Shown: piece after piece, positions 13,319 through 31,658 of the stretch
Position numbering within the stretch: the first letter of the stretch is position 1
How the letters are laid out: every line of letters starts with the position of its first letter
NCBI GenBank assembly: GCA_030019205.1
Contig: JASEFH010000011.1
Coordinates: forward strand, 255-64,254
Length of the DNA: 64,000 nucleotides
Reading direction: 5' to 3'
From: Methanomicrobiales archaeon
GTDB taxonomy: Archaea > Halobacteriota > Methanomicrobia > Methanomicrobiales > JACTUA01
Made by a program: the position numbers and the translations under genes
The notes under the pieces: generated by a model
Told to the model about the DNA's origin: nothing
Database searches by the model: none
Seen by the model: only the letters and a program-made list of their open reading frames with translations

Positions 13319-13413
13319 CGCCCGGCAAGCGCTGCACCGCAGAGAGGCAGAGGGATGGGCAGCCGGCTGCGTTGAACCCCCGGGTTCAAGAATCGAACCG
13401 GTGCCATCACGGG

Positions 13414-13486: not shown

Positions 13487-13735
13487 ATGGATCCCAACAG
13501 AATCCTGAGCGGCGGCATCTTTCGCCTGAAGCGGATCGACGGGGAGGTGCTGATCCAGATGCCCTCGGACGCGGAGCGCTACGGGCGCTTCTGGGAGCGC
13601 GTGATGTTCCCGGACGGAACCGTGCTCTTCCGCCCCCGGGATGCGGATCTGAGTGCGAAAGAGAGCGTTCAGGAGTGTTCCCCGCCGCCGCTCGAGCGCT
13701 TCAAGGCGTTCTTCAGGACCAAGCATACGCCCTAG
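13487..13735 (+). CDS. Hypothetical protein, 82 aa
   Basis: Not recognised. The product (MDPNRILSGGIFRLKRIDGE at its N-terminus, then a charged middle with GRFWERVMFPDGTVLFRPRD) looks like a compact soluble alpha/beta protein with balanced composition, unlike shadow frames. A TATA box lies upstream. Its stop codon shares a CTAG palindrome with the stop of the convergent gene at 13732-14220. No function can be proposed. Confidence 0.6.
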   Translation: MDPNRILSGGIFRLKRIDGEVLIQMPSDAERYGRFWERVMFPDGTVLFRPRDADLSAKESVQECSPPPLERFKAFFRTKHTP

Positions 13736-14220: not shown

Positions 14221-14446
14221 GCGAGGCAGGGTGGCTCGGGCGCCGGGATAAGGGCGTGGCATGAGGGGCGCGAAAGTGGAGCGGACCGCCCCCGCGGGGG
14301 CGGACTCCGGCGGACAACAATCTATGTAAAGTGTGCGGACGAACCGGATCCCCGGGGGAGAGCAGCGGTGCTGCGCACGAGCGCAACGCTCATATGGGAG
14401 CCGGGCCCGTATACCGGAACCTGCTGATAGCACCCCGAGGTTTGCG

Positions 14447-15508
14447 ATGGGATTCCGCGAGGCGATGGAGTTCGGCGTTCCCGATATCCGGAGGGGCTTG
14501 AGAGGGCTCTGCAGGATCTTCGAGTGCGGAGATGCGGGCATGCAGAGGGAACTGCAGGCCGCCCTCCGGGATATGGACGAGGCGGCTGTCGAGGTCTTCA
14601 TTCTGGCGCTGAAGCACAGGAGCCGGAAGATCCGCGCCCTGGCGCTCTCCACGCTCGCGGAGATCCGGGCTGCCCGGGCGGTGAAGCCCATCGTCGAACT
14701 GCTCGGCGACGAGGACGCGGAGATGCGGGCCAGGGCAGCGGCAGCGCTCGGGGAGATCGGGGATCCGGCGGCAGCCGCCCCGCTCATGCACGCGCTGCGG
14801 GATTCGGATCGGTTCGTGCGGGCGCGGGCGGCGATCGCCCTCGGACGCCTGGGAGGCGGGGTTGCCGAACCGCTGATCGCGGCGCTGTCGTCGGAGCACG
14901 AGCCCATCCGGGCGGGTGCGGCGATCGCGCTCGGAGAGCTGCAGGATCCGCGGGCGGCCCCGCATCTCCTGCGGGCGCTGAAGGACCGGGGCCCGGCCGT
15001 CCGTGCAGCGGCGGCGATCGCCCTGAAGTATGCCGGCCCTCCGGCGGTCGAGCCCCTGATCGGAGCGCTGCAGGACCCGGATGCGGATGTCCGGGCTGCC
15101 GCCGCCATCGCCCTCGGCAGGATCCGGGATCCGCGCTCCGTTCAGCCGCTCCTGCTGGCCCTGAAGGACGCGAGCGACGACGTGCGGGCGGAGGCCGGAG
15201 CGGCCCTGGGAGGCATCCGGGATCCGCGCTCGGTCGAGGGGCTCATTGCCGCCCTCACGGAGGACCGCAAGAGCGTCCGCTACTGGGCGGCCTCGGTCCT
15301 GGGCGAGATCCGGGATCCGCGCTCCGTCGAGCCGCTGATCGCGGCCATGCAGGACCCCGACGGCGACGTGCGGGAGGCGGTCGTTGAGGCCCTGGGCGAG
15401 ATCCCCGACCCCCGCGTGATCGAGCCCCTCAAGAAAGCCCTGAAGGACGAGCACAGGCGGGTGCGCAGGACGGCGGCCCGCGTGCTCCGTGGGGACGGGG
15501 ACCCGTAG
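14447..15508 (+). CDS. HEAT-repeat (PBS-lyase type) protein, 353 aa
   Basis: Almost entirely HEAT/PBS-lyase repeats: about ten units of roughly 31 residues with the pattern A-L-G-E-I-R-D-P-R-S-V-E-P-L-I-A-A-L-D, for example LGEIRDPRSVEPLIAAM and LGRIRDPRSVQPLLLAL. The first about 45 residues (MGFREAMEFGVPDIRRGLRG) are an N-terminal cap. Such alpha-solenoids act as protein-interaction scaffolds; lyase activity is not implied. The start ATG 14447 has CGAGG 6 nt upstream. Repetition at DNA level (gggatccgcgctcggtcgag and near copies) suggests repeat number may change. It is one of four HEAT genes in this window, all unlinked. Confidence 0.88.
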   Translation: MGFREAMEFGVPDIRRGLRGLCRIFECGDAGMQRELQAALRDMDEAAVEVFILALKHRSRKIRALALSTLAEIRAARAVKPIVELLGDEDAEMRARAAAALGEIGDPAAAAPLMHALRDSDRFVRARAAIALGRLGGGVAEPLIAALSSEHEPIRAGAAIALGELQDPRAAPHLLRALKDRGPAVRAAAAIALKYAGPPAVEPLIGALQDPDADVRAAAAIALGRIRDPRSVQPLLLALKDASDDVRAEAGAALGGIRDPRSVEGLIAALTEDRKSVRYWAASVLGEIRDPRSVEPLIAAMQDPDGDVREAVVEALGEIPDPRVIEPLKKALKDEHRRVRRTAARVLRGDGDP

Positions 15509-21629: not shown

Positions 21630-22307
21630 GATGGAGGGGGGGGCAGGGCTGCGGAACAACGGAAGTCCGCGTCCCACCCCGCGATACGGGAATCCGGCTG
21701 CCTCCATGTGGACGGTCCGGGACTCCACGGAGCCGAAGGAGCCGTCCAGACGGCCCGCAGCGATGCCGACAGCGGTCCACCGGTAACAGGCAGACGCAGA
21801 AGGCGGCTGTTCGATCCTCTACGGCATTTCTTCCATCGCAATGAGGGGAGAGTGGGCTCGATGAGGGGGCCCGATCGTGCCCGCTCCCGCCGGCAGGACA
21901 GCACGGGGAAGCGGTGCTCGCCATCCCGGGCAGGAGAGGATTTCTCTGCAGCAGCGGTACGATCTGCCCGGCATGCGCAAGGAGCGAAACGATCTCCGCA
22001 TCCGAGCAGGACCGGATCCTTCCCGCAGGAGCGCACGAGAATGCGTTCGTGGCGGTCTGGCTGCGGGAGGGCGGCATATGCCGTGCCGCCCCGAAGGTCA
22101 TCCTGCCGGGAGGACGGCGCGAAAGAGCGGGGCATCCGGCCGTTCTCCTGTCCGTGAATCCGGCAGGACACCGTCTCCACCCCATAAAAACCAGAATTTC
22201 GGGCCTCAATTCATTTTAACCATAAAAAGTGGATTAAATTCGAGAACGAAATATATAAATATTGTATTAAAAAATATCTATCTACCGGACGGCACAGGGC
22301 GATCGCG
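21630..22307. other. Long spacer, GC-rich then AT-rich promoter island
   Basis: About 680 bp. The first 560 bp are GC-rich with no convincing gene; a frame at 21914-22219 is open but unrecognised. A fragment cccaccccgcgatacggg at 21673 resembles the dispersed repeat. The last 100 bp (22190-22290) are sharply AT-rich and hold the promoter of the HTH-FHA gene. Confidence 0.45.
22246..22262 (+). promoter_or_regulatory. TATA box of the HTH-FHA/kinase operon
   Basis: The bases cgaaatatataaatatt hold a strong archaeal B-element/TATA combination about 55 bp upstream of ATG 22308, predicting a leader of about 30 nt. It is set in an AT-rich island unlike the surrounding DNA. Confidence 0.6.
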
Positions 22308-23108
22308 ATGGACGAGCGGAGCGCGGCAGAGACCGTTCTCATCAAGGAGGACCCCGATTTTCTCGAGGAGCTCTCGGAGTACCTCGATGTCCTGAGCAGC
22401 AGCGCGAGGCTCAGGATCCTGAAACTGCTGGAGAAGAAGCCCCGGGATGCCCGGTCCCTGTCGCACGAGATCGAGACCAGTTACGAGAACACGAAGAAGC
22501 ACCTTGACAAACTCCTGAGCATCGGCGTCATCCGCAAGGAGGCGGGGCTGGGGAGACCCACCAGCAAGGGGATCCATCCGGTCTGGGAGTACTCCCTGGT
22601 GCCGGGGAGCCTGGAGGCGATCGTTCGGAACCTCGGCCTGTTCAGCAACATCCGGATCACGGCCATCGACCGGGATCTCACCGACCGGTTGCGGCAGGTG
22701 CGGGGAAAGGTCTCCGACGAGCTCATGGATCGCTACCCCGCGCTGATGGTGATGGGGGGACCGGAAGACGGGCGGATCTTCCGGATCCGGGGCGATCGCG
22801 TGCGTATCGGGCGGATCGATCCCGAAGACCCCGAGAAGCACGAAGAGGATCTGGTCCTCCCGGAGGAATACCGATCCGTGACGCGGATCTCGAAACCGCA
22901 CGTGCGGATCCTGCAGGTGCAGGGCACCTGGTACGTGGAGGACTGCGGCAGCACCGGAGGCACCTTCCTGAACAACCGGAAGGTGGAGGGAGGGCGGCGG
23001 GAGAGTCTGCAGGACGGCGACGTGCTCGAACTCTCACGAGGCGTTCAGGGTGTGCGCCTTCTCCTCACCCTCCCTGCGGACGCCTCGAAGCCCGGCGCGG
23101 CAGACTGA
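22308..23108 (+). CDS. HTH-FHA regulator (ArsR-like winged helix fused to a forkhead-associated domain)
   Basis: 266-aa cytoplasmic protein. Residues about 20-105 form an ArsR-like winged helix (LSSSARLRILKLLEKKPRDA, SLSHEIETSYENTKKHLDKL). After a linker, residues about 145-260 form an FHA domain: the strand VRIGRIDPEDPEKHEEDLVL, then ISKPHVRILQVQGTWYVEDC and GSTGGTFLNNRKV, with the Arg, Ser/His and Asn-Arg positions that bind phospho-threonine. FHA domains recognise phospho-threonine peptides, so this protein could be a phosphorylation-controlled transcription factor. The next gene, 23 bp downstream, is a Ser/Thr kinase and the obvious upstream partner. The start at ATG 22308 fits the TATA spacing; target genes are unknown. 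Confidence 0.85.
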   Translation: MDERSAAETVLIKEDPDFLEELSEYLDVLSSSARLRILKLLEKKPRDARSLSHEIETSYENTKKHLDKLLSIGVIRKEAGLGRPTSKGIHPVWEYSLVPGSLEAIVRNLGLFSNIRITAIDRDLTDRLRQVRGKVSDELMDRYPALMVMGGPEDGRIFRIRGDRVRIGRIDPEDPEKHEEDLVLPEEYRSVTRISKPHVRILQVQGTWYVEDCGSTGGTFLNNRKVEGGRRESLQDGDVLELSRGVQGVRLLLTLPADASKPGAAD

Positions 23109-23131
23109 AGGGGCCGACGGGGGAAGGGGAG

Positions 23132-25528
23132 ATGGCATCGCTGCAGGGGGGCGGGCGGAGAACTGCGGTTGCCATCCTGGTCTTCTGCCTCCTCCTGCCG
23201 CCCACCTCTGCCGCCACGTACACCGTCAACCCCGGAGGCGGGGATTTTGCGAGCATCCAGGCAGCGATCGATCACGCCTCCCGCGGCGACACCATCCTGG
23301 TGGAGAGCGGCACCTACGCCGAGAACCTGCGGGTGGACCGGACGATCTCGCTGAAGGGGGCGGATACGGGAGACGGCGCCCCCGCGATCGACGCCGGCGG
23401 ACGGGCGGCGGCGATGATCCTGCTGGCCGACGGCTGCCGGATCGAGGGGTTCAGCCTCTACGGCGGGGGCGCCTTCGACGGCATCACCGTCTCGTCGTCG
23501 GGCAACACGATCGCCGGCAACCGGATCGCGGGCTGCGGGCGGGGCATCGCCCTCGAATCTTCCGGAGGGAACAGCATCGTCGGGAATACGATCTCCGCCT
23601 GCCGTGACGCGGGCATCGCCCTCATGCAGTCCCCGGATAACCGGATATCGCAGAACACGGTGCGCGGCAATGCGGGATACGGCCTCGTCCTCGGGGCGGG
23701 ATCCTCCGGGAACCGCATCTTCCTCAACACCTTCGAGAACGCGCAGAACGCGATCGCCTCCAGCGCCTCGGACTGGAGTTCGGCGGAGGCGCTGGCCTAC
23801 CCCTGGGGCGGGCGCACGATGACCTCCCCGCTCGGCAACTACTGGAGCGATTACTCGGGCAGGGACGGGGACGGCAATGGCATCGGGGACAGCCCCTACA
23901 CGATCGAACGGGGAGGGGATGCGATCCCCCGCCTGGCGACGCCGCAGAACCGGAGGGACGCCTACCCCCTGATCCGACCCTGGGAGGCGTACCTGGGCAC
24001 GGAGGCGGCGCCGTCGCAGACTGCCGCAACGCCGTCCCCCGCCCCGACGACGCCGGTGACCCCTGCAACGACGCCGCCATCCCCGGCGGAGCCCGCGGGG
24101 ACACCCGCAACACCTTCGGAATCACCCGGGCCACCGGCTCCCGGTCTCGCCCCCGTCCTGGGGACGCTGGGCGCCGCGGCGCTCCTGCTCGCCTCCGTCC
24201 TCGTGCGGGACGGCAGGAGCGCCGCTGGCTTCATCGTGGCGGACCTGCGGCCGTCCACCCGTATACTCGCCGCCGGCTTCGGGGCAACGGGCATCGCGCT
24301 CCTCCTCCTCTACGCCCTGACCGTGAGCTCCCTCGCCGCCCGCCCTCCGCAGGATGCCGGGTTCGCGGTCGGCCTCGGCACCGCCTTCCTCCTCACCTAC
24401 CTGGCGCTGTCCGCCCTGGTGCTCTGCTATGCCGCAGCATGCCGCCGCCCCTTCCCGACGGTGGCGCGCATCCACCTCGGGCTCTCCCTGGCCGCCGCCG
24501 CAGTGCTGATCCTCCTGGTCCCGGCGGTCAGCGGTGCCTTCTCCTTCCCGGATATCGGCGCGGTGCTCGCATCGGCCCTTCTCTCGTTCTGGCTGCAGGA
24601 GAGGACGCAGCCCCGGGGCGCCGACGGGCCGGCACGGGCAGAGGCGCCTGCATCCACGCTCCCGGGCGGGCTGACGATCCTCGATCCCTCGGCGGCGGAA
24701 GCCCCCGAACCGCAGAAAGCCCACTTTCCCCCGGACCTGCGGGGCAGGTACGCCAGCGTCGAGTACCTCGGGAAGGGGGGCGTCGCCCGCGTCTTCCGCG
24801 CACGTCGGGCGGGCGACGGGCGGGAGGTGGCCGTGAAGATCCCGATCAGTTTCGACGAGCTGACCGGCATCAGCTTCCTGAAGGAGATCAAGGCCTGGGA
24901 GGGGCTCCGCCACGAGAACATCGTGGAGCTCTACGAGGCGAACATCCTGCCCGTCCCCTTCTTCGAGATGGAGTACCTGCCGATGACGCTGGAGGCGTGC
25001 AGAAAACCCATGCCCGTGAACCGGGCGGTCCGCATCGTCCGTGCGGTTGCCGGAGGGCTCGCCTACGCGCACGCGCGGGGTGTCGTGCACCGCGACCTGA
25101 AGCCGCACAACATCCTCCTGTCCCCGGAGGGTCAGCCGAAGATCGCAGACTGGGGGCTCTCCAAGGCGGTTGCCGACGAGCGGGCATCGACCCTGACCGG
25201 GTTCTCCCTTCCGTATGCCGCCCCCGAGCAGATTGCGCCCCGGGAGTACGGCAGGACGGACGCGCGCACGGACATCTACCAGCTGGGCGTGCTCTTCTAC
25301 GAGCTGGTGACGGGGCAGCTCCCCTTCCGGGGAGAGGGGATCGCGGAGATCGCCTCGTCCATCCTGCACGACCGCCCTGCACCGCCCTCCCGCCTCAATC
25401 CCGAGGCTGAGCGCGTCGAGGCGGTCATCCTGCGGTGCCTGGAGAAGGATCCCGCGCAGCGCTACCCGTCGGCAGAGGATCTCCTGAGGGATCTGGAGGG
25501 CTGCGTCCGCGATGCGGAGGGTGCGTAG
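23132..25528 (+). CDS. Membrane Ser/Thr protein kinase with extracellular NosD-type beta-helix
   Basis: 798-aa receptor-like kinase. Residues 1-30 are a signal peptide (VAILVFCLLLPPTSA). About 30-290 are CASH/NosD-type right-handed beta-helix repeats rich in N-x-I-x-G-N steps (SIVGNTISACRDAGIALMQS, NRISQNTVRGNAGYGLVLGA). A Thr/Pro-rich linker (290-345) leads to about five membrane helices (345-510). The Hanks-type kinase (about 535-798) is complete: GKGGVARVF glycine loop, VAVKI lysine at residue 569, HRDLKPHN catalytic loop at 653, DWG (for DFG) at 673, and APEQ. An odd number of helices puts the kinase in the cytoplasm. ATG 23132 has GGGGAAGGGGAG upstream. It follows the HTH-FHA gene as an apparent operon. 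Confidence 0.9.
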   Translation: MASLQGGGRRTAVAILVFCLLLPPTSAATYTVNPGGGDFASIQAAIDHASRGDTILVESGTYAENLRVDRTISLKGADTGDGAPAIDAGGRAAAMILLADGCRIEGFSLYGGGAFDGITVSSSGNTIAGNRIAGCGRGIALESSGGNSIVGNTISACRDAGIALMQSPDNRISQNTVRGNAGYGLVLGAGSSGNRIFLNTFENAQNAIASSASDWSSAEALAYPWGGRTMTSPLGNYWSDYSGRDGDGNGIGDSPYTIERGGDAIPRLATPQNRRDAYPLIRPWEAYLGTEAAPSQTAATPSPAPTTPVTPATTPPSPAEPAGTPATPSESPGPPAPGLAPVLGTLGAAALLLASVLVRDGRSAAGFIVADLRPSTRILAAGFGATGIALLLLYALTVSSLAARPPQDAGFAVGLGTAFLLTYLALSALVLCYAAACRRPFPTVARIHLGLSLAAAAVLILLVPAVSGAFSFPDIGAVLASALLSFWLQERTQPRGADGPARAEAPASTLPGGLTILDPSAAEAPEPQKAHFPPDLRGRYASVEYLGKGGVARVFRARRAGDGREVAVKIPISFDELTGISFLKEIKAWEGLRHENIVELYEANILPVPFFEMEYLPMTLEACRKPMPVNRAVRIVRAVAGGLAYAHARGVVHRDLKPHNILLSPEGQPKIADWGLSKAVADERASTLTGFSLPYAAPEQIAPREYGRTDARTDIYQLGVLFYELVTGQLPFRGEGIAEIASSILHDRPAPPSRLNPEAERVEAVILRCLEKDPAQRYPSAEDLLRDLEGCVRDAEGA

Positions 25529-31100: not shown

Positions 31101-31658
31101 CTACCACTCCTCCTGCTCCGTGATCTTGCGCAGGGCGCCCCGGGCCGCGCTCCGCACCTCGTACTCGTCGTCCTCGAGAGCGCGGATCAGGGCGCTCACC
31201 GCCTCCTCGGTATCCGGGCGGACCCCCTGCTCGTCCAGGATCTTCCCGATCGCGTCGGCTGCGGCAACCCGCACGTCCTTCTTCGGATCCTCCAGCAGGG
31301 CGACCAGATCCGGCACCGCCCGCTGATCCCCGATCTCACCCAGCGCCCCGGCTGCCCCCTGCCGCACCCAGCGCTCCTCGTCTTTCAGGGCGCGGATGAG
31401 AGGCTCCACGGCCCGCCTGTCCCGGAGCCTGCCCAGCGCCACGGTGGTCACGTAACGCACCTCGTTCGAGGGATCCTCCAGGAGCGCGATGAGCGGCACC
31501 ACACCCCGCTCGTCGCCGATCCGCCCGAGAGCCTCCGCCGCCTTCACCCGGTAGGGGATATGCTCATGGCCGAGCTGCCTGACGATCTTCTCGAAGTTCT
31601 CCTCCCTCCTCTTCTCCCGATCCACCATGATCACGGGCGGTGGAGCCTCTTCACCCAT
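31101..31658 (-). CDS. HEAT-repeat protein, 185 aa
   Basis: Five HEAT/PBS-lyase units, e.g. AAEALGRIGDERGVVPLIAL, VALGRLRDRRAVEPLIRALK and GALGEIGDQRAVPDLVALLE. The N-terminal 25 residues are charged (MVDREKRREENFEKIVRQLG) and likely start at ATG 31658; an internal ATG at 31628 (MVDREK) is possible. An alpha-solenoid interaction scaffold; its partner is unknown. Unlinked to the other three HEAT genes here. Confidence 0.87.
   Translation of the reverse strand: MGEEAPPPVIMVDREKRREENFEKIVRQLGHEHIPYRVKAAEALGRIGDERGVVPLIALLEDPSNEVRYVTTVALGRLRDRRAVEPLIRALKDEERWVRQGAAGALGEIGDQRAVPDLVALLEDPKKDVRVAAADAIGKILDEQGVRPDTEEAVSALIRALEDDEYEVRSAARGALRKITEQEEW

Follow-up and report, generated by a model that had tools for sequence, protein, structure and literature searches.

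A conserved receptor kinase and HTH-FHA regulator form a probable cognate phosphothreonine signalling pair in Methanomicrobiales

The two genes at positions 22308-25528 of the window, by which we mean the whole 64,000-nucleotide stretch of Methanomicrobiales DNA analyzed here, belong to a real and conserved system whose members are probably cognate. The best overall explanation, in which we place good confidence, is that they encode a cognate transmembrane Ser/Thr kinase and regulator, with Thr9 of the regulator as the likely switch and a PP2C phosphatase as the likely means of resetting it. The original prediction had recognized a signalling pair at this site; new beyond it are another such pair elsewhere in the genome, the invariance of Thr9, the PP2C and a candidate operator.

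Results

Both open reading frames lie on the + strand, at 22308-23108 (266 aa) and 23132-25528 (798 aa), separated by a 23-bp spacer. These coordinates, lengths and spacer agree exactly with the original prediction, and the domain content that it gave is borne out by Pfam and AlphaFold. A TATA-like, AT-rich stretch 5′ of the first gene, AAATATATAAA (22249-22259, + strand), is a candidate promoter element, its consensus judged by eye. Elsewhere in the window, two proteins (14333-15508 and 31101-31658) resemble by eye HEAT-repeat (PBS-lyase-like) repeats.

The first gene encodes a putative HTH-FHA transcription factor. Its AlphaFold model (m4f4e414ef3e0; mean pLDDT 82) comprises an HTH domain and a linker that are both helical, followed by an FHA domain folded as a beta-sandwich. 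Pfam places an ArsR-like helix-turn-helix (HTH_5) at residues 32-77 (22401-22538; 2.8e-5, above its cut-off), with a stretch, SYENTKKH, that is invariant in the alignments, and an FHA domain at residues 165-242 (22800-23033; 2.5e-12). Among the residues of the phosphothreonine pocket, which also include His198, Arg169 is invariant and Ser195 and Asn222 are shared by 90% or more of 55 relatives. By the presence of this Arg, Ser and Asn, the domain is predicted to read phosphothreonine. The structures closest to the modelled FHA fold include those of GarA, phosphorylated OdhI, EmbR, and DgcB with its phosphorylated tail peptide.

Thr9 (codon 22332-22334) lies in an N-terminal tail, residues 1-13, that is disordered in the unphosphorylated model (pLDDT below 50), AlphaFold being unable to place phosphothreonine. 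Every one of the 82 relatives whose N-terminus is complete has Thr9, as do 20 further members, and its entropy in the family alignment (A3) is zero, whereas the tail around it is otherwise variable. Downstream of Thr9 the residues are mostly I/L/V, V/I and L/V/I, then often acidic, giving a conserved pattern T-[ILV]-[VI]-[LVI], which reads T-V-L-I in the window. Because an invariant threonine in the tail, mostly V/I/L residues at +2 and +3, the FHA fold matches and the precedent of Rv2175c all point the same way, Thr9 is a candidate phospho-acceptor that we infer to be both the target of the kinase and the ligand of the FHA domain. One alternative is that the sole ligand of the FHA domain is the receptor kinase in its autophosphorylated form, so that the transcription factor would be held at, or released from, the membrane, with Thr9 making a structural or some other contact. 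The FHA domains of EmbR and GarA do bind phosphorylated kinases (PMC4601284, PMC8546545), and the conserved pocket residues suit this reading too, but it leaves unexplained why a threonine should be invariant amid variable residues of a tail modelled as disordered, and we consider it unlikely.

The second gene encodes a receptor Ser/Thr kinase (Pfam: NosD 7e-28, Beta_helix 2e-18, Pkinase 7e-42). Its AlphaFold model begins with a helix at residues 7-21 (23150-23194), taken with hydropathy as a signal peptide, followed by a NosD-type right-handed beta-helix ectodomain at approximately residues 29-232 (23216-23827), a disordered proline-rich linker, membrane helices and a kinase domain from about residue 540. 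The model has five membrane helices (342-359, 373-402, 409-437, 441-462 and 472-492; 24155-24607), of which hydropathy alone detects four. With an odd helix count following an external ectodomain, the kinase domain would sit in the cytoplasm, and by hydropathy the kinases of relatives have one or about five helices after the ectodomain. Such odd counts fit a predicted sensor outside and kinase inside.

The kinase domain (residues 540-785; 24749-25486) is of Hanks type, with the expected Lys, alpha-C Glu, HRD Asp, Asn, DFG-type Asp and APE, DWG replacing DFG. A pseudokinase reading, suggested by DWG, was discarded because catalytic Lys569, Glu585, HRD Asp655, Asn660 and DWG Asp673 are invariant among relatives (alignments A2 and A4). 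Conservation of the activation-loop threonine is not strict. Foldseek with the full protein matched kinases only, with PknB the nearest solved structure. Pfam detected neither a histidine kinase nor a receiver domain in either protein, and a phospho-relay in the His-Asp sense, the term originally used for the pair, is unsupported.

The pair is conserved well beyond the window. A scan of public genomes with the HTH-FHA protein returned 80 loci. Nearly all bear Methanomicrobiales names (Methanoregula, Methanoculleus, Methanolinea, Methanofollis, Methanocalculus and Methanospirillaceae among them), and a few are labelled otherwise, as 'Euryarchaeota archaeon' or, once, 'Thermoplasmata archaeon'. 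The kinase lies directly behind the HTH-FHA gene in nearly all of these loci with enough downstream DNA. Within the phylum, 30 of 38 genomes sampled from the order carry the gene for the HTH-FHA protein, versus 0 of 159 from outside it.

We then have a survey of 100 Methanomicrobiales genomes, each at least 90% complete, searched with profiles of both proteins. HTH-FHA genes occur in 73 and kinase genes in 74, and 72 of the 75 genomes having either have both (Fisher p ~4e-20, the genomes not being independent). On the same strand and within 2 kb downstream, a kinase gene follows 102 of 108 HTH-FHA copies; some of the six exceptions are near contig ends. The two genes stand side by side across 22 genera, a pairing far beyond chance, and the check that the original prediction had set, a conserved neighbourhood with co-occurrence of the two genes, was passed. 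In one genome (G086:C63, L118), a pair is divergent and not in tandem.

In the genome that contains the window, exactly two FHA genes and exactly two full kinases score over the cut-off, and these form two pairs. The second (contig G000:C35; locus L006, 5132-7600) has a kinase with several membrane helices and no recognized ectodomain. Upstream of this pair, a divergent gene codes for a small exported protein that has a relative behind the palindrome described below in another genome (L123). Protein distances for the HTH-FHA protein and the kinase domain correlate over 89 pairs (r = 0.87, to which shared ancestry contributes).

Could the two genes be co-expressed without being cognate, the kinase acting on other proteins and the HTH-FHA protein reading some other phosphoprotein? 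We find that 25 of 127 kinase matches lack a neighbouring HTH-FHA gene, as this would allow, several of them being fragments or at contig ends. Near-perfect co-occurrence, adjacency in 22 genera and correlated divergence argue against it, as does the window's own genome, whose only two FHA genes pair with its only two full kinases, making this the least probable of the explanations that we weighed, and a very improbable one.

The conserved pair has exchangeable ectodomains. NosD beta-helices are found in the Methanoregula lineage, the window and one further family (f2), PEGA domains in a Methanolinea-type lineage, and unrecognized or short ectodomains in most Methanoculleus and in Methanofollis. 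A joint tree of the HTH-FHA protein and kinase domain requires at least six changes of ectodomain type. Retention of the pair while its sensor is swapped is the trace expected of a cognate kinase-regulator couple. The original claim of a signalling pair is supported by gene order and co-occurrence. Two of its parts are unsupported, the His-Asp sense of 'relay' and the carbohydrate ligand; the latter was dropped because the ectodomain is NosD, PEGA or unrecognized depending on lineage.

A phosphatase adjoins the pair in some lineages. PP2C is present in 77 of the 100 Methanomicrobiales genomes and lies near an HTH-FHA gene in approximately 20; in all of these the two genes share a strand, and in 14 PP2C stands immediately upstream. 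Among the loci read out in full, ten have PP2C, HTH-FHA and NosD kinase genes in a row and two have the order HTH-FHA, kinase, PP2C. These gene runs bring together, in some lineages, the three parts for reversible phosphothreonine signalling. PP2C was ruled out as a universal third member, its linkage depending on lineage; 15 genomes have PP2C without an HTH-FHA gene and 11 the reverse, as far as PP2C was detected. The one PP2C found in the window's own genome is unlinked to the pair (G000:C10:17930-18508; L090, 7784-8563, - strand). Its sequence has DGxGG, GDSR, SDG and DN motifs, and its neighbours, which look unrelated (DHH/OB-fold-like and PhoU/TrkA-C-like by eye), provide no functional lead. 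In a Methanospirillaceae genome (L088 and L114), an HTH-FHA gene is followed by PP2C and, approximately 2.4 kb on, by a divergent second HTH-FHA gene, behind which L114 has a kinase.

A palindrome, TTGAACC-N4-GGTTCAA, stands 5′ of HTH-FHA genes in Methanoregula and some Methanolinea. At least 11 of its 14 positions match in 26 of 84 upstream regions, where about 1 would be expected. Exact copies occur in 32 of the 100 genomes of the order, versus none for a reversed control, and in 2 of 159 genomes outside it, so that the palindrome is nearly restricted to Methanomicrobiales. Many copies lie some 20-24 bp before a GGGAATATAT box, and such spacing ahead of a TATA box is the position expected of an archaeal activator. 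Of 30 sampled sites, several of them orthologous and hence not independent, 14 precede a gene for a signal-peptide protein, versus 7% of random positions; two of these proteins have CARDB or weak PKD matches.

The sole exact copy in the window's own 2.73-Mb genome lies in the window, at 13372-13389 (TTGAACCCCCGGGTTCAA, unstranded), 21 bp before a TATA-like GGGAATATATAGG box. Behind it is an 82-aa open reading frame (13487-13735, + strand), a possible target gene for which Pfam gave no match and the collected loci no homologue. Here the putative link between this candidate operator and the transcription factor comes from relatives only. No palindrome precedes the paralogous pair on C35, and the best match upstream of the window's HTH-FHA gene is 8/14, which led us to reject autoregulation through such a site in the window's own promoter.

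Judged from these sequence patterns, the chances are about even that the palindrome is an operator of the HTH-FHA protein. The rival to this one step, that the site belongs to another regulator of the order of which the cassette is merely one target, is a serious possibility that we rate somewhat below even. Two Methanoculleus-type genomes (G054 and G088) have three copies each with neither cassette gene found, and family f2 has the pair with no exact copy, as another regulator would predict. Against it, 8 genomes have a copy no more than about 4 kb from the cassette, and in family f3 the palindrome occurs in 5 of the 6 genomes that carry the higher-scoring HTH-FHA copy, the one resembling the window's, and in none of the 4 that carry the second copy alone.

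Nine Methanoculleus-type loci (L124, L127, L130, L131, L135-L137, L140 and L141) have the palindrome at position 1501 (826 in L136), where it and a TATA box precede a conserved stretch, TAATGGGGAATGTGGAYGGGGTTCGCCCC(C)CACTCTGTTAT. This stretch could form a hairpin, has no clear long open reading frame, and is perhaps a small RNA or a small peptide gene.

Discussion

We propose a model where the external ectodomain controls the cytoplasmic kinase. Once active, the kinase would autophosphorylate and the FHA domain would dock on it, whereupon the docked kinase would phosphorylate Thr9 in the flexible tail of the HTH-FHA protein. An FHA domain, either its own or that of a partner subunit, would capture pThr9-x-x-[ILV], and the resulting change of conformation or oligomer may alter DNA binding. 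PP2C, whose gene belongs to the cassette's run in some lineages but is unlinked to it in the window's genome, would reset the switch. Probable targets include the cassette's own genes and those of exported proteins, controlled through TTGAACC-N4-GGTTCAA just upstream of the TATA box. We infer the phosphorylation and capture of Thr9, the direction of the switch, the ligand, and palindrome binding by the HTH-FHA protein.

In a broader context, it is tempting to see here a phosphothreonine counterpart of two-component systems, in which a receptor kinase with an exchangeable ectodomain, an HTH-FHA protein acting as response regulator and reading the phosphothreonine of its own N-terminus, a dedicated PP2C and a palindromic operator would together govern exported proteins of Methanomicrobiales. 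We put this wider reading forward tentatively, at somewhat less than even odds. To our knowledge, hardly any substrate of an archaeal receptor-type Ser/Thr kinase is known, and ArnA, the best-studied archaeal FHA regulator, is without agreed evidence of direct DNA binding. In the present system, gene order names a substrate, conservation a likely residue in Thr9, and promoter comparison a likely DNA site; with all three named, a membrane-to-promoter phosphothreonine pathway in archaea becomes directly testable. The varying ectodomains provide a natural series in which to look for the signal.

No description of a kinase/HTH-FHA pairing in archaea was found among open-access papers, in agreement with the original statement that none was known. 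The nearest archaeal system is that of Sulfolobus, where the FHA protein ArnA and its partner ArnB, the Hanks kinases ArnC and ArnD, and PP2A control gene expression (PMC5300886, PMC12852372). It shares with our system an FHA protein, a Hanks kinase and a phosphatase. However, ArnA has a zinc finger in place of an HTH, and its authors saw no hint of DNA binding; ArnB is a vWA protein, and ArnC is described as carrying an OB domain and a TPR-like stretch in place of an ectodomain. The protein described here differs from ArnA, with its N-terminal zinc finger and vWA partner, in having an HTH at the N-terminus and a kinase as the next gene.

The system would appear to work most like PknH-EmbR of Mycobacterium tuberculosis, where FHA-dependent phosphorylation raises DNA binding and the PP2C MstP reverses it (PMC4601284). 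Both have a transmembrane Hanks kinase and a partner with an N-terminal DNA-binding and a C-terminal FHA domain. EmbR, however, combines an OmpR-type DNA-binding domain with a BTA domain, whereas here Pfam finds an ArsR-like HTH (HTH_5) and FHA only, with no BTA; the ectodomains also differ, and the N-terminal threonine is invariant here. EmbR aligns with our model over both domains only at rmsd 16. Since DNA-binding domain and sensors differ, we do not place the protein in the EmbR family.

For the switch itself, the closest parallels are GarA and OdhI, substrates of PknB or PknG, and Bdellovibrio DgcB, which likewise have a threonine in a disordered N-terminal tail, hydrophobic residues at +2 and +3, and the same FHA fold. 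Their tails are bound by their own FHA domains, the +3 residue of DgcB entering the FHA cleft (PMC6733907); for the archaeal protein, the same capture is our proposal. GarA and OdhI are regulators of enzymes, DgcB is itself a diguanylate cyclase, and none of the three has the HTH present here. The ETTS motif of GarA and OdhI is absent from the HTH-FHA tail, and the alignments contain no TTS. In M. tuberculosis, PknL phosphorylates Thr9 of the disordered N-terminal tail of Rv2175c, and a phosphomimetic there abolishes DNA binding (PMC4601284). Rv2175c is a winged-helix DNA-binding protein and, like the putative regulator described here, has Thr9 in a disordered tail, but no FHA domain has been described in it and its tail is unconserved even among mycobacteria. 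The archaeal pair combines features of both, the tail threonine and FHA domain of GarA and OdhI with the tail threonine and HTH of Rv2175c.
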